Shown: positions 40,721 to 48,778 of the stretch, one piece after another
Position numbering within the stretch: position 1 is the stretch's first letter
How the letters are laid out: every line of letters starts with the position of its first letter
Assembly: GCF_000429925.1 (NCBI RefSeq)
Contig: NZ_AUCU01000015.1
Coordinates: 1 to 64,000 of the forward strand
DNA length: 64,000 bases
From: Desulfatirhabdium butyrativorans DSM 18734
GTDB taxonomy: Bacteria; Desulfobacterota; Desulfobacteria; Desulfobacterales; Desulfatirhabdiaceae
Direction: 5' to 3'
Program-made: the position numbers and the translations under genes
Notes under the pieces: generated by a model
Told to the model about the DNA's origin: nothing
The model's database searches: none
Seen by the model: only the letters and a program-made list of their open reading frames with translations

Positions 40721-41932
40721 TCATGAAGGGTATGTGTCTGGCTTTGTGGCTGCTTGGGGTAGCGCCCACGCCATCAGAGCGAACAGGATCGCTGCGGTGA
40801 TGGCCGTGCCTGCTCCGAAATAAAAGGTAGACGAAGGCGAAACATGGTCCCAGAGCCATCCGGCGATGAAACTTGCGGGAAACGCTGCGATTCCCACCAC
40901 GGTATTGTATAACCCGAAAGCCGTTGCCTTGAATTCAGATGGAATGATACTGGTGAGATACGCTTTCTGGATGCCTTCGGTCAGCCCCATGAACAGGCCG
41001 TAGCAGCCGAAGAGGAACCAGATGGACAGGGTGTCGGTTGCTTTTCCGAAACCGAAATACAGGGCTGCGAACAACACGAAACCGATCCAGATCATGCGCT
41101 TTTTCCCGAAACGATCCGCAAGGATGCCCAGGGGAAAGGATGAAAGGGCGTAGACGAGATTGAACATCAGATAGACGATGGGGATCATTGCGCTGGTGAT
41201 TCCCAATTGCTGTGCCCGAAGGATCAGAAAGACATCGCTGGAGTTGCCGATGGCGAAAACGGCGGCGATGATGACAAAGAAACGAAAGCGCCAGTCGAAG
41301 AGGCGCCAGCTCAGTTTGGGGCGCTCCGAAGCGGATGGAATAGCGCGCTTTTTTTCGGTAATGAAGCACACGATCAAGAGCACCGCAATTGCTGCCGGAA
41401 TCATGGACAGCCAGAAGATGACGCGATAATTGTTTGATGTGATCGAAAGCAACCAGAAGGCGAGCGCCGGGCCGGCGACTGCACCAAGGGTATCCATCGA
41501 ACGATGAAAACCGAAGGCCCTGCCCATGGAATTCATGTCCGTCGATTCGGCGATGATGGCATCCCGGGGGGCTGTTCGAACTCCCTTTCCAAAACGGTCA
41601 ATGAAGCGGGAGGCCATGACCGGATGCCATCCCGCGGCCAGGGCTACAAATGGCCTGCTGATGGTGGAAATTCCATAACCTGCCGCCATCAGCCATTTTC
41701 GGTTTCCAATCCGATCCGAAAACCAGCCGGAGAACACCTTCAGAAGACTGGCCGTTGATTCGGCGATACCTTCGATCAGCCCGATAAGCGACTTGTTGAC
41801 GCCAAGCACACTTGCGAGAAACAGCGGAACCAGCGGATAGATCATTTCCGAGCTGACATCCATGAAAAAGCTGACCCATCCGGCGACTGTCACATTGCGG
41901 CCCAGGCCGAACAATGGCTTCTTGCGATTCAT
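40721..41932 (-). CDS. MFS transporter
   Basis: This 403-residue protein has about 12 hydrophobic segments. I take the start at M-N-R-K-K (41932), where ggaaagga lies 10 bases upstream; an upstream extension to 42001 runs into repeat DNA. The loop G-W-F-S-D-R-I-G-N-R-K between helices 2 and 3 is the MFS A motif, echoed in the second half by G-I-L-A-D-R-F-G-K-K. It is probably a drug or metabolite exporter in the inner membrane, substrate unknown. No regulator is next to it. Confidence 0.88.
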   Translation of the reverse strand: MNRKKPLFGLGRNVTVAGWVSFFMDVSSEMIYPLVPLFLASVLGVNKSLIGLIEGIAESTASLLKVFSGWFSDRIGNRKWLMAAGYGISTISRPFVALAAGWHPVMASRFIDRFGKGVRTAPRDAIIAESTDMNSMGRAFGFHRSMDTLGAVAGPALAFWLLSITSNNYRVIFWLSMIPAAIAVLLIVCFITEKKRAIPSASERPKLSWRLFDWRFRFFVIIAAVFAIGNSSDVFLILRAQQLGITSAMIPIVYLMFNLVYALSSFPLGILADRFGKKRMIWIGFVLFAALYFGFGKATDTLSIWFLFGCYGLFMGLTEGIQKAYLTSIIPSEFKATAFGLYNTVVGIAAFPASFIAGWLWDHVSPSSTFYFGAGTAITAAILFALMAWALPQAATKPDTYPS

Positions 41933-42348
41933 GATATGGGTTTCCTTTCCGGGTCCGACATCGTTTCTGAAGGAGAAATTTCGGATTTCGATTGAGCTCA
42001 TCCGCGATGGTCTCGCAAAAAGTCAGATGCTCTTGGTTGACCCGCAGGAGGGCGGGTGCATTTTGCTTGCGCAGCGGAAAAACTCAGCAGCCCGATCTCG
42101 TAGGATCGGGCGGATGGCCAAGATGGAAAAGAAGGTTTTCTGAAATGCAAACTACTGTTTTTCATCAGAAAATGGATGAAGCGCGTCCGCCCAATCCAAT
42201 CACGCCTTTGGCGTGATCTCCGGCTGCTTCAAACTCGTTTCCGCTGCTTCGCAAAACACCACCCGCCCTCCTGCTGGAAGCCCGGCATTGGGAGTAAATC
42301 GGTAAGAGGCGACTTTTTGCGAAGCCGTCATCCATGAGGTCATCTGAA
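41933..42348. other. Divergent gap occupied by a repeat element
   Basis: Apart from the short MFS upstream region, nearly all of this gap is the inverted-repeat element 42007-42335. Small open frames here are within the repeat and not believed. Confidence 0.5.
42007..42335. repeat. ~330-bp element with inverted ends (cgcaaaaagtc)
   Basis: The left end reads gatggtctcgcaaaaagtc and the right end gactttttgcgaagccgtcat, inverted. Inner segments are also inverted: aggagggcgggtgcatttt on the left versus caccacccgccctcct on the right. The right half (ccggctgcttcaaac through gactttttgcga) recurs at 56920-57035. A palindrome gcccgatctcgtaggatcgggc lies at 42090. Confidence 0.65.
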
Positions 42349-42993
42349 ATGGATATATACGCCAATTATCAGCAGTTGCAACGTTCGGAGATCATCAACA
42401 AGGATTTCCGGATTCTCTGGCGGGAGGGCAGCTCCGGTATCGCCATACTGAGCATTCATGGCGGAGAAATCGAACCCGGAACAACCCAACTTGCCGATAT
42501 GATCGCCGGTTGGGACCACAGCTTTTATACATTTCAGGGGATCAAACCCCGGGGAAATCTGGGGCTGCATATTACGAGCAACCATTTCGATGAACCGATC
42601 GCCCTCGAAATCGTTTGTATTTCCGAAATCATCGTTTCCATTCATGGGTGCAAGGACGAGGAGCCTCTCGTCTATGTGGGCGGACAGGATCAGGAAATCG
42701 GAAACCTCATCCGGAAGGAACTGGCGGAGGTGGGTCTTCCTGCAGTCGAATGCGTCGGCATGGAACTGAGCGGTGAGAATGATCGCAATATCTGCAATCT
42801 CTGCGGACGAGGCATGGGGGTGCAGTTGGAAATCAGCAGGGGGTTGCGCATGCAGATGTTCCGGGATCTTACACCCGAAGGGCGCACCCATCGGACCGAG
42901 GTGTTTTACCGATTTGTCGAAGCCGTTCGGGCGGCGTTGAGCCCGTATGCAATGATGCTTTTGGAGGGAACCCCACTGCAGGGAACCGATTGA
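42349..42993 (+). CDS. YjqB-type poly-gamma-glutamate hydrolase family protein
   Basis: This 214-residue protein starts at ATG 42349. The segment S-I-H-G-G-E-I-E-P-G-T-T near residue 40, then H-I-T-S-N-H-F-D-E and S-I-H-G, are the zinc-ligand motifs of the PghP/YjqB family (PF05908), phage-related peptidoglycan- or polyglutamate-cleaving enzymes. C-terminal N-I-C-N-L-C-G-R-G-M-G-V-Q-L-E-I matches the family's N-R-G-x-x-G-V-Q-L-E-x block, here with extra Cys. It has no signal peptide. It is isolated between a repeat and the riboswitch. Confidence 0.8.
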   Translation: MDIYANYQQLQRSEIINKDFRILWREGSSGIAILSIHGGEIEPGTTQLADMIAGWDHSFYTFQGIKPRGNLGLHITSNHFDEPIALEIVCISEIIVSIHGCKDEEPLVYVGGQDQEIGNLIRKELAEVGLPAVECVGMELSGENDRNICNLCGRGMGVQLEISRGLRMQMFRDLTPEGRTHRTEVFYRFVEAVRAALSPYAMMLLEGTPLQGTD

Positions 42994-43103
42994 CCGTTTT
43001 CTCCTGGACAATCAGCTGGTTGAATCCGGCAAATCCGGATTTATCCTTGCGTTTATCAGCATATCATTGACAATCGCCTTCGAATCGCTACAATCATTCT
43101 GAG

Positions 43104-43155
43104 ATGGGGATGGAGTTCCCCGAAGCAACCGCCGAATTGGGCTGATGACTCCTGG
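43104..43155 (+). promoter_or_regulatory. Fluoride (crcB-type) riboswitch upstream of the MutS-like operon
   Basis: The sequence fits the published crcB aptamer consensus: ggggatggagttcccc at 43106-43121, then aaccgcc, then ggctgatgactcct ending at 43153. GGGG/CCCC forms the first stem, gcc/ggc the second, and GGAGU (43112-43116) can pair with ACUCC to make the required pseudoknot. It ends 25-70 bp before the two candidate starts of the MutS-like gene. No T-tailed terminator follows. A weak ctggt/accag pairing (43152-43186) could mask ATG 43179, so translational control is possible but unproven. Confidence 0.9.
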
Positions 43156-43223
43156 TTGACGAAAGTCCTTGATGGATAATGACCAGAGAACGGCTCAATC
43201 CCTATTCCGGCGAGGTTGCCCCC

Positions 43224-44759
43224 ATGAATCGCATCAGCATTCTCTTTCCTGAACCACCCGATCCACCGCCGTCCTTACCTGAGGAACCCCAAGCCTTCAT
43301 GATCGATCTGCATCTGGATCAGGTCATTGAGAGCATTGTTGCCGGAAGGCAGGACTATGATTTGAAGCCGTTTTTCCACGCGCAGCTCCAACATCCTGCA
43401 GCCATTTCCTATCGCCAGGATGTCTTTCGGGAACTGGAAAATCCGGCGGTTCAGAACGCGATACGCTCCTTCAGCAGGCGGATGATGGACATGCGGACCT
43501 GCCTGAATCAGGCGGAAAAGCTCTATGTCCACTATCAGCGGGAAAAGTGGTTTCTGGATGCGGTTGAAACCTATGGAAATGCCGTTTGCGCACTTGTGGA
43601 GGAATTGTCTTCCCTTGAATTGATTTCAGTTGGATTTCAAACCGTTCAGTCCTATTTGCTTCAGTATGCACATTCCGAATTGTTTCGACATATTCTTGAA
43701 GAGGCAAAGGCCCTGCAAGCAGATCTGGCTGCAATCGATTATTGCATCCTGATCCAGGAAAATGCCGTTGAGGTTCGGGCCTTCGAACAGGAGCCGGATT
43801 ACAGCGAGGCTGTCGAAAAAACCTTCTCGAAATTCCGCCAGGCGGATGTCAAGGATTATCGTGTCCGTTTTTCGGAATGGCCGGACATGAACCATGTGGA
43901 AGAGAAAATTCTGGAAGGGGTTGCCAGGTTGTTTCCCGGCCCTTTTGAGCGGCTCGATCGGTTCTGCCAGGAGCATGCCGATTTCCGGGACGACCGCATT
44001 CTGGCTTTGGACCGGGAAATCCAGTTTTACCTTGCCTACGGCGACTACATGGCCAGATTCAGACAAAACGGGCTTTCCTTCTGCTATCCCCAAATATCCA
44101 CAGCCAGCAAGGAGGAAGAGAGCCTGGATGGTTTCGATCTTTCCCTGGCCGAAGTTTTGATGGCCAAGGGAAAAAGGATCGTGTGCAATGATTTTTTCCT
44201 GAAAGACCCGGAACGGATCTTCGTTGTCAGCGGGCCAAACCAGGGCGGCAAAACCACTTTTGCCCGAACCTTCGGTCAACTGCATTATCTGGCAAGCCTC
44301 GGGTGCCCCGTTCCCGGGAGAAAGGCCAGACTGTTTCTCCAGGATCGCATCTTCACGCACTTCGAAAAAGAGGAAACCATCGCAAATCTGCACGGAAAAC
44401 TGCAGGATGAGATCGAGCGCGTCCATGAAATCGTGCAGCAGGCCACATCCAGCAGCATCGTTTTGCTGAACGAAATGTTCAGCTCGACGACGCTGCAGGA
44501 TGCCGTTCTGCTCAGCCGCCTCGTGCTGAACCAGTTGCTGGATCGGGATGTGCTTGGGGTTTGTGTCACCTTTATTCATGAACTGAGTTCCATGAGTCCC
44601 AAAACCGTCAGCGTCGTCAGTTGCGTCGAACCGGAAAACCCGGATCTGCGAACGTACCGGCTGGTCCGAAAACCAGCCGACGGACTGGCCTATGCGCTAT
44701 CCATCGCCGAAAAATACCGCCTGAGCTACCGCCTCCTGAAAGGACGCCTGCCGTCATGA
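43224..44759 (+). CDS. MutS-like ATPase A (MutS core and ATPase domains only)
   Basis: This 511-residue protein starts at ATG 43224 (gcgagg upstream); ATG 43179 would add 15 residues. The N-terminal two thirds are helical, like the MutS lever/core. The C-terminal ~200 residues are the ABC-type MutS ATPase: Walker A S-G-P-N-Q-G-G-K-T-T, then F-E-K-E-E-T-I near 400, Walker B S-I-V-L-L-N-E-M-F-S-S-T, and a following C-V-T-F-I-H-E. The mismatch-binding F-x-E domain of true MutS is absent. It is the first gene after a fluoride riboswitch; crcB-type RNAs upstream of mutS-like genes have been described. It overlaps the next gene by ATGA. Confidence 0.85.
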   Translation: MNRISILFPEPPDPPPSLPEEPQAFMIDLHLDQVIESIVAGRQDYDLKPFFHAQLQHPAAISYRQDVFRELENPAVQNAIRSFSRRMMDMRTCLNQAEKLYVHYQREKWFLDAVETYGNAVCALVEELSSLELISVGFQTVQSYLLQYAHSELFRHILEEAKALQADLAAIDYCILIQENAVEVRAFEQEPDYSEAVEKTFSKFRQADVKDYRVRFSEWPDMNHVEEKILEGVARLFPGPFERLDRFCQEHADFRDDRILALDREIQFYLAYGDYMARFRQNGLSFCYPQISTASKEEESLDGFDLSLAEVLMAKGKRIVCNDFFLKDPERIFVVSGPNQGGKTTFARTFGQLHYLASLGCPVPGRKARLFLQDRIFTHFEKEETIANLHGKLQDEIERVHEIVQQATSSSIVLLNEMFSSTTLQDAVLLSRLVLNQLLDRDVLGVCVTFIHELSSMSPKTVSVVSCVEPENPDLRTYRLVRKPADGLAYALSIAEKYRLSYRLLKGRLPS

Positions 44760-46300
44760 ACGTGTATCTGATGTTTTCGGACAGAGATTTCGACATGAAC
44801 GACGAGTCTCCTTTCAACGAAGAATCGCTCATTCAGGATTTGGAGTTGGAGCCGCTTCTTCAGGAAATGAGCCTGGGAGATCGCTTTCTGTATGGCGTCG
44901 TGCGAAAAGCCCTCATGTGTAGCCTGAAAGACCCGGAACGTATCCGGTATCGTCAGCAGGTGCTCCAGGATTGCCTCAATCATGCCTCGGCTGTGCATCG
45001 CCTATACGACATCGCCGTTTCGGCCATCGAACAGGAGAAAAAGCATTATTTCGGCATTTTCATGCGGTACCCGGTTTCCATTCTGCATTCGTCGCTCGAA
45101 TTGATGCGGGATCTGGTGGGCCACTTGAAACAGGTCCGCAAGATTGCAGATGATGAAGGGAATGACTTTTCATCACCGGGATTCAGCCGTCTCTATTCGA
45201 TGATCCGCGCAGAGCTTTCGGATACCTATTTTGATGAAATCGAAAATCATCTGAAAGCGCTGCGGTTTCCGGACGGGGTGCTCATTCGCGCCGGACTCGG
45301 GCAGGGGAACAAAGGCCGGGATTATGTTCTGCTGCAACATCGGCCCAAACGAACGCCCTGGCTTCATCGAATTTTCTCCGAGAAACGATCCGTGTTCCGC
45401 TTTACGATTGCTCCTCGGGATGAAAACGGCGCCAAAGCCTTGTCGGAACTCCGGGACAGAGGGATCAACCGGGCGGCCAATGCCCTTGCCCAGGCAACGG
45501 AGCATATCCTGCATTTTTTCAAGGCGCTTCGCGTCGAACTGGGCTTTTACATCGCCTGCATGAACCTTTGGGACAACTGGAATGGAAAACGGTGGCCCCT
45601 GACGTTTCCGGATCCCCAGCCGCTTGGCCGATGCATCCATCGTTTTCTCGGGCTCGTTGACATCTGCCTGGCGTTTCGCATGAAAGCGCTGCCGACCGGA
45701 AACGATATCCAGGCGGACGATCGGATGCTGGTCATCGTTACGGGCGCCAATCAGGGCGGAAAATCGACGTTTCTGCGCAGCGTCGGGCAGGCGCAATTGA
45801 TGATGCAGTGCGGGATGTTTGTTGCAGCCCTTTCTTTCAGGGCCAATGTTTGCGACGGATTGTACACGCATTTCAAGCGCGAGGAAGATCCGGGCATGAC
45901 CAGCGGCAAGCTCGATGAAGAATTGCGCCGCATGGATGAGATTGTCGCGCGGATTCGACCGAATGCGATGGTATTGCTCAACGAATCATTTGCAGCGACC
46001 AATGAGCGGGAGGGATCGGAAATCGCCCGCCAGATCACGCAAGCGCTTGCCGAAAGCCGGATCAAGATATTCTATGTCACTCACCTGTATGCATACGCCC
46101 ATGACATGTTTCAACAGAAAAGCGCGTACACGCTATTTCTGAGGGCTGAGCGGGAAGCGGACGGCCACCGTACGTTTCGGATCTTACCAGGGGAGCCATT
46201 GGAAACCAGCCACGGGAAAGACCTCTATCAAGCCATCTTCGGCCGCGCGATGGAGGCGCCGGGTGGCGGCGATGCCGGTATGGCAGGGGCAAGCCCATGA
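44756..46300 (+). CDS. MutS-like ATPase B
   Basis: This 514-residue protein overlaps gene A by four bases (ATGA). The architecture is the same: helical N-terminus, then Walker A T-G-A-N-Q-G-G-K-S-T, H-F-K-R-E-E-D-P near 385, Walker B A-M-V-L-L-N-E-S-F-A-A-T, and F-Y-V-T-H-L. It has no mismatch-recognition domain. It differs clearly from gene A outside the ATPase motifs, so the pair is an old duplication and not a recent one. The tight overlap suggests a heterodimer with one ATP site from each, as in MutSalpha. The target (DNA, ribosome or membrane) is unknown. The tail is Gly/Ala-rich. Confidence 0.85.
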   Translation: MNVYLMFSDRDFDMNDESPFNEESLIQDLELEPLLQEMSLGDRFLYGVVRKALMCSLKDPERIRYRQQVLQDCLNHASAVHRLYDIAVSAIEQEKKHYFGIFMRYPVSILHSSLELMRDLVGHLKQVRKIADDEGNDFSSPGFSRLYSMIRAELSDTYFDEIENHLKALRFPDGVLIRAGLGQGNKGRDYVLLQHRPKRTPWLHRIFSEKRSVFRFTIAPRDENGAKALSELRDRGINRAANALAQATEHILHFFKALRVELGFYIACMNLWDNWNGKRWPLTFPDPQPLGRCIHRFLGLVDICLAFRMKALPTGNDIQADDRMLVIVTGANQGGKSTFLRSVGQAQLMMQCGMFVAALSFRANVCDGLYTHFKREEDPGMTSGKLDEELRRMDEIVARIRPNAMVLLNESFAATNEREGSEIARQITQALAESRIKIFYVTHLYAYAHDMFQQKSAYTLFLRAEREADGHRTFRILPGEPLETSHGKDLYQAIFGRAMEAPGGGDAGMAGASP

Positions 46301-46968
46301 CTTTTATGCTCTCAAACGGTGAAATTCATTTCTTGTGGTGGTTCATCCAGGGCAGCATCATGTCGCCGTCGACGCGGGAGCGGTTGTGGAAAGGCTGGGG
46401 GATGTGCGAGCGGCATGCATGGGGATTCATGGTGATGGAGGCGGCCTTCCATCAGGGATATATGCATGGCGCCGCCATTTTGTATGAAGACCTGATGTGC
46501 CGGGCTGCTCACCTGTTTGGCGCGCGATGGCCCAAAGCGTGGCGGATCCGGAGCGGCTTCCGGGAGAAAGGGCCCTGTTTGTTGTGTGAAGCCGGATACG
46601 GCCCCCAAAGCCGGGGGGCGGCAGGAGAGAAGCTGGTGATTACCGGGCGTGATCTGACCGAGATTCGACAGATGGCCCGGTTGACCATGCAGGACTGGTC
46701 CGGCACCGTATGCGGCATCTGTATCGGTCAGGAAAACGGCTTTCGATGCCGAAAACACCTCATTGCAGATCTGGCGATGGGCAAGAGACCAAATCTTGAA
46801 GCGCATGCCCGGCGGGTCGATGATATGGCGACCCGCCTTCGCACCTATGCATGTTCGTTTCGCTACGGCTTTCACGGAACATCGACACGCAGGGACATGG
46901 CTGCACTGATCGAGGCCGTTGGCTGGTGCAGCGGATGGAAAACATTGTTCGATATTCTCGATGAATGA
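46297..46968 (+). CDS. Cys-containing protein, DUF6062-like, third gene of MutS-like operon
   Basis: This 223-residue protein overlaps MutS-like B by ATGA. A segment M-S-P-S-T-R-E-R-L-W and then C-E-R-H-A-W-G-F recalls DUF6062 proteins, whose typical form is S-x-G-F-C-x-x-H-A-W. Later pairs C-L-L-C-E and C-G-I-C-I with C-R-K-H may bind a metal. I know no function for this family. Its coupled translation with two MutS-like ATPases under a fluoride riboswitch makes it a candidate partner or cofactor of that pair. The end faces the UspA gene with 30 bp between them. Confidence 0.65.
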   Translation: MTFMLSNGEIHFLWWFIQGSIMSPSTRERLWKGWGMCERHAWGFMVMEAAFHQGYMHGAAILYEDLMCRAAHLFGARWPKAWRIRSGFREKGPCLLCEAGYGPQSRGAAGEKLVITGRDLTEIRQMARLTMQDWSGTVCGICIGQENGFRCRKHLIADLAMGKRPNLEAHARRVDDMATRLRTYACSFRYGFHGTSTRRDMAALIEAVGWCSGWKTLFDILDE

Positions 46969-46998: not shown

Positions 46999-47415
46999 TT
47001 ATCGCACCACGAAAACGGAGCAATGGCTGTAGGCGATGATCCGTTTGGCCACCGATCCGACCAGCCACCGTTGTGTCAATGTATCGCCGCGATGGCCCGT
47101 CACGATCACGTCCACGTTCTTTTCTTCGGCCGCCTGAACGATCTGCTCGGCCGGATGCCCGACCCGCACTTCGCACGACATCTCGATGCCCTGCGCCTGC
47201 GCAAGTTCCCTCAGGCATTTGTAATGCCCCTCGAAGTATTCTCTGGCGTTATCCAGCATTTCCTGCAGCTCGACGGCAACCGCCGGCTCTCCCGGGCTTG
47301 CCACCGAAACCACGGTCATTTTGGCGCCATATTTTACCGCCATATCCAGTGCGTAGCGAAAGGCCTTCTCGGATTGTTTCGAGCCGTCGTAGGCGACAAT
47401 CATGTTCTTGATCAT
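46999..47415 (-). CDS. Universal stress protein (single UspA domain)
   Basis: This 138-residue protein starts at ATG 47415 with aaggag eight bases upstream. It begins M-I-V-A-Y-D-G-S, the start of a UspA fold. The ATP-binding loop G-H-R-G-D-T-L-T-Q-R-W-L-V-G-S-V is complete, so it is likely an ATP-binding Usp. It lies 52 bp after the antiporter gene on the same strand, so it is probably the second gene of the riboswitch-controlled transcript. Usp genes have been noted among fluoride-riboswitch targets. Confidence 0.88.
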   Translation of the reverse strand: MIKNMIVAYDGSKQSEKAFRYALDMAVKYGAKMTVVSVASPGEPAVAVELQEMLDNAREYFEGHYKCLRELAQAQGIEMSCEVRVGHPAEQIVQAAEEKNVDVIVTGHRGDTLTQRWLVGSVAKRIIAYSHCSVFVVR

Positions 47416-47467
47416 CTCGATCTCCTTTCTGTGAATGGTATCCATCAGACATCCGCAGGGATGTTCA

Positions 47468-48664
47468 TCAATCTTTCGGATTTCTTTCGGTCCCCGAAGG
47501 ATTTTCATTTTCCGGGGTTGGGAGCAAATGCCGCGGCATGAAGGCGACGCTTGCGATGAGTGTCGGAATGACGGCGCTTGCAATGACGGTTGCGACCAGA
47601 AATGAATACTGGGCCTGATCGACGATGCCATGCGAAAGACCGTAGAGGGAGGAAATCGTGCCGAAGGTCAGGCCGGTGGACATCATCAGGGTATAGTACC
47701 ATTTTTCCTGATACTGTTTGCGGAAGATCGCAACGAATGGATACAATCCGAAAATTTTTGCAAGTACCTTCCCGAAAAACAGGAGCACGAAGACAAGGGG
47801 AGCTGCGATCAGGGCGGGAAGCGATACGAAGGTTCCGGCTCGCAGAAAGTAGATCGGGGTAAGAAAACCGACGGTCAGGGTGCGAATCCTGCGCATCCAC
47901 AGGGCATCCTGGGAAGAAAATTCGGCCAGCACCATGCCGATGAGGTAGGCCGGCAAAACGGCTTCACTGCCGGACCACAAGGCCAGGGCACCGAGGGCGA
48001 AGAGGATGAAGATGACCCATTTGGTGCGAATGGCGGCGGTCCGGTAGGCATAGATGCGGGTGAGGCTGCGGCTCATCCATGGAAGCAATACCAGAACAAC
48101 GATGGTCACTACGATAAAGACGATCGTTTTGTATGTGAATGGCGCAAAGAGCAAACCGAGTGCGATGACCGTTCCCAGGTCGTTGATGAAACAGGCCCCG
48201 AGGATCCCTTTCCCGAATTCCGTCCGGTTGAAACCGGTCTCCAGCATCACGGCGTAAACGACAGCCATGGATGTGGTGGACAGGGCCACACCTGCCAGAA
48301 GGCTTGCCTGGGTTTCCCAGTGCAGCAGGTATTTGGCAACTGCCGCACACCCGAGAAAGGGTGCCAGAAAACCGACAAATCCGACGATCGTGACTTCCTT
48401 GATCTTGGCCTTGATGACTTCGGGCTCCAATTCCGCGCCTGCCAGGAAGGTCAGCAGGATCGCCCCGGAAGATGCCAGAAATTTCAGCCAGTCCTCATTG
48501 GACCCCAGTTGCTGGAGCATCCCGAAATGATGGGCCACCGCCGCGGTGGCGACCCCCACGCAGATTTCCACCAGGGCAATGGAAATTTTCAGATGATAGG
48601 CGAGAATTGCCGAGAACACGGCAAGTCCAAGCCAGATACTTGCGAGTGTCAACATGTGTTCCAT
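47468..48664 (-). CDS. Cation/proton antiporter (CPA family)
   Basis: This 398-residue membrane protein starts at M-E-H-M-L (48664), with aaggag ten bases upstream. About 12-13 hydrophobic segments are visible. Features of the Na+/H+ exchanger domain include T-F-L-A-G-A-E-L-E-P near residue 80, A-L-S-T-T-S-M-A-V-V-Y-A near 135, and F-I-N-D-L-G-T-V-I-A-L with the conserved N-D pair near 170. It is preceded by a fluoride riboswitch and attenuator, which implies induction by fluoride. It may export fluoride or restore pH/ion balance during fluoride stress. It has no CrcB or CLC-F similarity. Confidence 0.85.
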   Translation of the reverse strand: MEHMLTLASIWLGLAVFSAILAYHLKISIALVEICVGVATAAVAHHFGMLQQLGSNEDWLKFLASSGAILLTFLAGAELEPEVIKAKIKEVTIVGFVGFLAPFLGCAAVAKYLLHWETQASLLAGVALSTTSMAVVYAVMLETGFNRTEFGKGILGACFINDLGTVIALGLLFAPFTYKTIVFIVVTIVVLVLLPWMSRSLTRIYAYRTAAIRTKWVIFILFALGALALWSGSEAVLPAYLIGMVLAEFSSQDALWMRRIRTLTVGFLTPIYFLRAGTFVSLPALIAAPLVFVLLFFGKVLAKIFGLYPFVAIFRKQYQEKWYYTLMMSTGLTFGTISSLYGLSHGIVDQAQYSFLVATVIASAVIPTLIASVAFMPRHLLPTPENENPSGTERNPKD

Positions 48665-48705
48665 GGTTTCCTGTCTCCTTTTTTCGGGATGATGATACCG
48701 AACCA

Positions 48706-48732
48706 AATAAAAAACCCGCTTTTCAGCGGGTT
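48706..48732 (-). terminator. Attenuator in the leader of the antiporter gene
   Basis: On the minus strand aacccgc and gcgggtt form a 7-bp stem with a 6-base loop followed by six Ts, a standard intrinsic terminator located between the riboswitch and the antiporter start. The preceding segment tttcagcggg (minus strand, 48761-48770) is complementary to cccgctgaaa in the terminator's 5' half, so it can act as antiterminator. This is a complete transcriptional expression platform. Confidence 0.88.
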
Positions 48733-48778
48733 CTGGTGAAGTCATCTATGGAACGACTCCCCGCTGAAAGGATCAACG

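Follow-up and report, generated by a model that had tools for sequence, protein, structure and literature searches.

The stretch analysed here, hereafter the window, comprises 64,000 nucleotides of Desulfatirhabdium butyrativorans DSM 18734 (contig NZ_AUCU01000015.1, positions 1 to 64,000 of the forward strand). It carries a fluoride riboswitch followed by two genes for MutS-like ATPases, which we call A and B, and by a third gene, C, for a cysteine-rich protein. Across the loci in which A is found, the link between the A-B pair and fluoride riboswitches is general and far above chance, and sequence comparison suggests that A and B are probably the two subunits of an ATPase dedicated to fluoride tolerance. 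The features of the locus are as follows:

43067-43094, + strand: sigma-70-type promoter, TTGACA-16-TACAAT, agreeing with 11 of 12 consensus positions
43097-43161, + strand: fluoride riboswitch aptamer, RF01734 (Rfam cmscan score 47.1 bits, gathering score 34, E = 6.4e-10)
43224-44759, + strand: gene A, MutS-like ATPase (Pfam MutS_V, E = 3e-18; a longer frame runs from 43179)
44756-46300, + strand: gene B, MutS-like ATPase (Pfam MutS_V, E = 1.2e-17)
46297-46968, + strand: gene C, Cys-rich protein, distant relative of DUF6062 (by hhalign to the DUF6062 proteins of fluoride loci)

A preliminary description of this DNA, made from its letters alone, had placed a crcB aptamer at 43104-43155; the covariance match confirms it and is slightly wider. 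The promoter-like site stands immediately 5′ of the aptamer and is the single sigma-70-type match in 42990-43300, where shuffled sequences give a mean of 0.2. For gene A, comparison with its homologues, which begin at M16 of the long frame, indicates a start at the ATG at 43224 and not at 43179; this ATG lies 8 nt downstream of a GAGG. The three genes overlap through ATGA at both junctions (44756-44759 for A/B and 46297-46300 for B/C), just as had been read before.

A and B, of 511 and 514 aa respectively, align to each other over 450 columns in a profile comparison (99.95%). MutS domain V (PF00488, cut-off 30.2 bits) scores 66.9 bits in A and 65 bits in B and is the only Pfam family over its cut-off in either protein, with no Smr or KOW match for A or B in Pfam. 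The curated families score both proteins well below their cut-offs: NCBIfam MutS1 (480 / 641.7) gives 78.5 / 67.3 for A and 59 / 54.9 for B, MutS2 (400) gives 64.6 and 60.6, and KamC (300) gives 55.4 and 66.7. No close solved structure was found for either protein, the best sequence matches being the ATPase domains of MutS2, MutS and Msh. AlphaFold models of A and B (mean pLDDT 85.7 and 83.9, respectively) match the core, lever and ATPase of MutS, with most alignments beginning near residue 257 of E. coli MutS. The best match to the MutS core has a Z score of 30.1 for A (rmsd 5.6, 440 aligned) and 30.4 for B (rmsd 12.1, 440 aligned), and the next one for B has 30.3 (rmsd 4.3, 382 aligned). From these models, A and B are predicted to keep the MutS core fold without the mismatch and connector domains, in agreement with the earlier view of two MutS-like ATPases that lack mismatch recognition. 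In a quick tree of 40 ATPase domains, A and B together form one clade with a support of 1.0, apart from MutS1, MutS2 and KamC. A role in mismatch repair was rejected, as domains I and II are missing and the family scores lie far under the cut-offs; we hold it very probable that the function of A-B is a different one.

To place the pair in other genomes, a collection of 84,980 species genomes was scanned by protein similarity to A alone, so that the resulting loci are unselected for the RNA. The best 80 of 577 relatives, which span nearly all of A at 48-56% identity, were taken as A loci, and the family is at least this large. With the window they form a set of 81 loci, to which 12 other loci of the same phylum were added to give 93 distinct loci; genes in these loci are chosen open frames, and the stretches read are of unequal length. 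B is present in 92 of the 93, the exception (L099) having a contig edge just past A. The start of B overlaps the stop of A by 4 nt in 72 of the 84 loci counted, and 68 of these overlaps read ATGA.

A covariance model, R1, was built from 20 aptamers found with Rfam and then run on the 80 loci. Counted from aligned A starts, an R1 aptamer lies directly ahead of A on the same strand in 59 of the 81 loci, at 38-597 nt upstream (median 135), and in another 11 it is reached via a same-strand gene run ahead of A. This count replaces one made from open-frame starts (63 of 96 direct, three of the loci being duplicates), in which five of the 12 added loci were direct; two more of the 12, L066 and L067, are direct by R1 alone. 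An Rfam check took in 31 of the 59 direct aptamers, plus the window's own, and 23 of the 31 reach the Rfam cut-off (13/15 + 5/7 + 5/9); R1 also under-scores some aptamers that Rfam scores highly. An aptamer found by Rfam or R1 is present somewhere in the stretch in 85 of the 93 loci. For 46 loci of other MutS, MutS2 and KamC genes, read with 1.5 kb flanks and leaving out L166 (itself a B gene), R1 gives zero matches at E<=1.

The same link appears at the level of whole genomes. The A family occurs in 14 of 395 genomes of the same phylum (profile of A, E<=1e-60); 13 of these score at least 734 bits, and in the exception, G101, A is split by a stop. A fluoride riboswitch is found at E<=0.001 in 157 of the 395 (152 over the cut-off), and all 14 A genomes fall within these 157 (Fisher p = 1.7e-6). 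The median number of aptamers per genome is 3 in the 14 A genomes and 1 in the remaining 143. In a set of 57 close genomes that counts the window's as one, three have a full-length A: the window's own, G004 and G037.

The spread of A is broad. The 79 A proteins carry 17 phylum labels, of which the two archaeal ones may be misbinned, given that they come from metagenome bins. On a quick tree of A the phylum label changes 31 times, where the least possible is 16 and the shuffled mean is 52.9. Given these labels and label changes, the A family appears to be old but mobile. A B relative at E<=1e-60 occurs in 47 plasmid records, 46 of them covering at least 80% of B's length, and A relatives covering at least 80% of A occur in 45. 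Among the 47, 21 are typed as conjugative and 35 are in Klebsiella, Citrobacter, Rhodococcus or Enterobacter. A precedes B in all six annotated plasmid regions examined, with the Rubrobacter A in two frames; a seventh region is unannotated at this place. Many plasmid copies are annotated as DNA mismatch repair protein MutS.

One of these copies is from E. coli, and its DNA is found at close identity in one of 5,426 E. coli genomes, on a waste-water plasmid. There the order is aptamer, antiporter, universal stress protein (UspA), A and B, and the unit facing A-B, itself led by an aptamer, consists of a DHHA2-domain protein (taken as ppaC), uspA, eno, a gpmA-type mutase and crcB. The fluoride operon of E. 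cloacae FRM, in the available text of its description, has the same gene set as this facing unit (PMC5533749). According to the same text, E. cloacae FRM is highly resistant to fluoride and falls back to what E. coli tolerates once that gene set is removed (PMC5533749). Most of the set is present on a Klebsiella plasmid as well.

Such a patchy distribution, together with the presence on plasmids, is what one would expect if A and B were ordinary MutS-like paralogues, carried as passengers in fluoride islands by horizontal transfer. Passengers would not be expected to be led so often by an aptamer immediately upstream of A (59 of 81 loci), nor to keep their ATPase motifs, their pairing and the 4-nt overlap across 17 phylum labels, and we consider this explanation very improbable. 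Given that the pair stands behind fluoride switches in many phyla as well as on plasmids, A-B is probably a widespread fluoride-tolerance machine.

The ATPase site of both proteins is rewired, and asymmetrically so. The Walker A motif is kept: 89 of the 91 A proteins and 76 of the 85 B proteins show the strict pattern G.NQGGK, and its Gly-Gly-Lys is invariant among the 51 A and 58 B proteins aligned. Asn takes the place of the Walker-B Asp in all 91 A proteins and in 84 of the 85 B proteins. The switch His has become Phe in every one of the 91 A proteins and remains His in 84 of the 85 B proteins. The signature Ser-Thr of canonical MutS is Gly-Lys in both A and B, and the Arg four positions past the canonical Walker-B Asp is lost in both. 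By motif matching, and going by structure titles, the Asn position is the residue altered in E. coli MutS D693N (3k0s), while the lost Arg is the residue altered in R697A, the 'ATPase-asymmetry mutant' (1ng9). A-B resembles MutS1 and the Msh heterodimers in its lever, core and ATPase fold and in having two unlike subunits, as in Msh2-Msh3; it differs from them in the lack of mismatch and connector domains, in the Walker-B Asn in place of Asp and in the loss of the Arg.

A second difference between the two subunits lies at the lever tip. In the region equivalent to the MutS clamp, the mean net charge is +4.8 for B (50 of 58 at +3 or more) and -0.2 for A (n = 51), compared with +3.1 for canonical MutS (n = 8) and +0.2 for MutS2 (n = 6); no other part of B is as basic as the stretch that holds this region. 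The basic region of B is a weak hint that its partner is nucleic acid or some other polyanion. A lever tip comparable to that of canonical MutS, along with the MutS core fold, would also suit a DNA clamp for genome maintenance, guarding forks or limiting recombination as pyrophosphate rises under fluoride, and such a function would lie close to the label 'DNA repair (mutS)' given in 2010 (PMC2864571, as far as its available text goes). Yet the mismatch-recognition and connector domains are missing, a MutS-type open frame of 892 aa exists apart from A-B in the same genome (on contig C1), and no DNA-repair family is found among the neighbour families named or scanned, most neighbours being without annotation. 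A genome-maintenance clamp is therefore unlikely in our judgement.

Taking 58 of the 59 direct leaders, a terminator-like hairpin lies between the aptamer and A in 39, compared with 6 of 58 when each leader is shuffled once.

Several observations weigh against the view of A-B as a fluoride-controlled tolerance ATPase. No R1 aptamer heads the A unit in 11 of the 81 loci, two of which are cut by a contig end. Eight of the 31 checked direct aptamers (L077, L147, L085, L086, L081, L091, L102 and L118) score below the Rfam cut-off and are called by R1 only, and in G004 no aptamer was found within the 9 kb read around A-B, the rest of that genome not being searched. The switch ahead of A resembles known fluoride riboswitches (RF01734) in having an aptamer over the cut-off directly ahead of a gene, and homologous leaders share the terminator-like hairpins; it is unlike them in that the window's leader to A has no terminator. 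Given this lack, control in the window may be translational, and the leader is predicted to fold such that the CAACCGCC strand of the aptamer pairs with the Shine-Dalgarno region. The energy of this pairing is no better than that of shuffles (z -0.92). Sequestration of the Shine-Dalgarno sequence was thus rejected as the window's switch, and translational control of A-B there is only a guess.

The rewired site and the lever tip are subject to similar reservations. A diverged A-like/B-like pair (L175:1578-4837, - strand), by sequence reading beside a MerR-like frame, has the Walker-B Asn, a Gly-Lys or Gly-Arg signature and the switch His in both members, and no fluoride aptamer was found within the 6 kb read around it. 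One other genome among the 58 searched around L175 holds a partial relative. Given that this pair shares the Walker-B Asn without an aptamer, the rewiring of the ATPase is not specific to fluoride, and the Asn is either older than the fluoride link or untied to it; the idea of a fluoride-specific rewiring is weakened accordingly. In the sample taken, it is the His-to-Phe change that belongs to the fluoride clade. Basic charge alone is no proof of nucleic acid binding, and the equivalent region of MutS2 carries almost no net charge. Finally, A-B is absent from the island table of E. cloacae FRM, and the word 'MutS' does not occur in the available text of that paper (PMC5533749). Hence, A-B is not needed for the high resistance of that strain.

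On balance, we favour the following mechanism. Fluoride binding to the aptamer would switch the A-B genes on, and A and B would form an asymmetric heterodimeric, ATP-gated clamp that works beside exporters, antiporters and additional copies of enzymes sensitive to fluoride. The basic lever tip of B may engage nucleic acid or a ribonucleoprotein, and the clamp would clear machinery stalled there when fluoride traps NTPases and blocks pyrophosphatase. The nature of the target, i.e. nucleic acid or ribonucleoprotein with stalled machinery, is the least certain step and one that we put forward only tentatively. A parallel is MutS2, which splits stalled ribosomes. According to the available text of PMC10897456, this MutS-family ATPase has a role other than mismatch repair and is recruited to collided ribosomes through its Smr and KOW parts. 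A-B shares with MutS2 a core and ATPase fold of about 500 residues; it differs in having no KOW or Smr part, in consisting of two unlike genes, in its non-canonical ATPase motifs and in being under fluoride control. The clearing step would thus resemble the splitting of stalled ribosomes by MutS2, with a different mode of recruitment.

A bolder version of this mechanism takes the ATPase itself as rebuilt to turn over while magnesium-fluoride traps P-loop NTPases, such that A-B could eject the trapped NTPases from ribosomes or nucleic acid. It would account for the replacement of the magnesium-holding Walker-B Asp by Asn in both subunits, and for the Lys at the trans signature. We regard this version as quite unlikely; if true, it would represent a class of repair for ion poisoning that is so far undescribed.

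The neighbours of A-B bear on a further explanation. Among the 93 loci, they include a dynamin-like GTPase in 33, enolase in 28, a Kef-type antiporter in 18, FluC/CrcB in 15, a universal stress protein in 13 and pyrophosphatase in 6, and 52 loci hold one or more known fluoride-regulon genes (enolase, antiporter, UspA, FluC, ClC or pyrophosphatase). The frequency of enolase and the presence of pyrophosphatase would fit the main rival to a clamp that clears stalled machinery, namely that A-B is a reactivase that frees fluoride-trapped enzymes, chiefly one of these two. Enolase directly neighbours the pair in L079, a locus with no aptamer found, and also in L066 and L067, whose aptamers R1 detects and Rfam does not. 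However, no enolase occurs in the stretch read for 65 of the 93 loci. The available text of a 2024 review counts enolase among the general fluoride-regulon genes (PMC11139923); its proximity is therefore not specific.

The other support for a reactivase comes from KamC, a MutS relative described in NCBIfam as a reactivase ATPase, which scores A and B below its cut-off. KamC and A-B are alike in being MutS-family ATPases outside mismatch repair, linked by these weak NCBIfam matches. On the other hand, the sole KamC over the cut-off that was found (L151) has a canonical Walker B and the switch His, whereas A and B have Asn and A has Phe. KamC also belongs to a different branch, where it groups with MutS2 (support 0.955). 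Upstream of the one full KamC found, the gene does not encode a MutS protein. On these grounds, namely the canonical motifs and the upstream gene, the identification of A-B with KamB/KamC hinted at by NCBIfam was rejected, and a reactivase function for A-B appears doubtful to us. An anti-phage defence system was likewise rejected: in PADLOC, A, B and C have no match at E<=0.01, and the matches that do occur are those of three dynamin-like neighbours to LeoA/LeoBC.

Gene C is of a different standing from A and B. The preliminary description took it for a DUF6062-like protein, which holds at the level of profiles (98.6% probability over 192 columns in a profile-profile comparison by hhalign with DUF6062 proteins of fluoride loci) and not in Pfam, where no DUF6062 match is listed at E<=10, with HMMER filters that drop most weak matches. 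It had also proposed a dedicated three-protein complex and a check on the conservation of the triplet. The pair A-B passes that check and the triplet does not, as the C family occurs in only four of the 93 loci; the contiguous order A-B-C is seen in the window alone, with C elsewhere in the island in the other three. The three-gene module was thus rejected on account of the rarity of C.

In favour of a three-protein fluoride-response complex are the ATGA overlap that couples C to B in the window and a DUF6062-type gene directly after B in six of the 92 loci that have B. These six are the window's C, free DUF6062 proteins in L078 and L102, and dynamin-DUF6062 fusions in L088, L095 and L106; further dynamin-DUF6062 fusions are found in L036 and L137. 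Such fusions speak against the complex, since the DUF6062 proteins may go with the dynamin-like GTPases of the islands as much as with A-B. The rule is not universal: the dynamin-like GTPase of L109 has no DUF6062 at E<=0.01, so that the proposal that all members of this dynamin family carry DUF6062 was discarded. Given that the C family is found in so few loci and next to B only in the window, C is not a fixed third subunit. C is real and probably part of the response, and a complex of all three proteins is improbable.

The surroundings of A-B-C in the window contain a further fluoride riboswitch and genes that may belong to a fluoride response:

40721-42001, - strand: MFS transporter; members of its family in 11 of the 93 A loci
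46999-47631, - strand: universal stress protein (Pfam Usp, E = 5.3e-32)
47468-48745, - strand: CPA2/Kef-type Na+/H+ antiporter, 425 aa (Pfam Na_H_Exchanger, E = 1.2e-26)
48852-48775, - strand: second fluoride riboswitch (Rfam, 44 bits), heading the antiporter-UspA unit

The antiporter-UspA unit is convergent with A-B-C, and a terminator-like hairpin (48734-48711, - strand) lies downstream of its riboswitch. The same arrangement recurs 3′ of fluoride aptamers at other loci. At L037:4379-5293 (- strand), a fluoride aptamer is followed by an antiporter-like frame of 287 aa that looks decayed when set against the 425 aa of the window. A third fluoride riboswitch of the same genome (contig C10, L004:8406-10359) heads a dynamin-like GTPase with a Dynamin_N match of 4.2e-30 and similarity to LeoA in PADLOC. 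No aptamer of its own was found for the MFS gene, and members of its family lie inside riboswitch-led gene runs in some A-B loci. A poly-gamma-glutamate hydrolase-like gene (42334-42993, + strand; Pfam, 1.9e-61) lies just 5′ of the promoter and has a relative in the A-B locus L116. Aptamers are numerous in some places: eight R1 matches fall within 21.5 kb of L134, and genome G329 has 11 Rfam matches.

That MutS-type genes are associated with crcB RNAs was known, as the preliminary description had stated. In the available text of Weinberg et al. (2010), 'DNA repair (mutS)' is named among the genes behind crcB RNAs (PMC2864571), and a 2020 review, in the text available, repeats the DNA repair label as a prediction, right after warning that such predictions may err (PMC7266159). 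Given these two papers, the association itself is old. The mutS genes of 2010 are alike to A-B in being MutS-type genes behind crcB RNAs, and are very likely the same genes; what differs is the picture, as the 2010 label is that of a DNA repair gene, and A-B is a two-gene pair with no mismatch domain and with a rewired site.

The available text of the 2024 review of fluoride resistance lists export, ion balance and extra copies of inhibited enzymes as the bacterial answers to fluoride; it contains none of the terms 'MutS', 'mismatch', 'DNA repair', 'dynamin' or 'GTPase' (PMC11139923). A literature search on dynamin together with fluoride riboswitches turned up no paper. No account of the A-B pair was found in the literature searched, and an earlier mention in subscription papers is possible; as far as we have seen, the pair, its architecture, the rewired site, the spread on plasmids and the breadth of the family are undescribed.

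If A-B is indeed a fluoride-tolerance ATPase, an active step of clearing or remodelling would be added to the known answers of bacteria to fluoride. It would also correct the 'DNA repair, mutS' label, in use since 2010 and repeated in many plasmid annotations. Furthermore, the MutS family of ATPases would be found in yet another job, with changes in the ATPase site at positions that have already been studied as MutS mutants.

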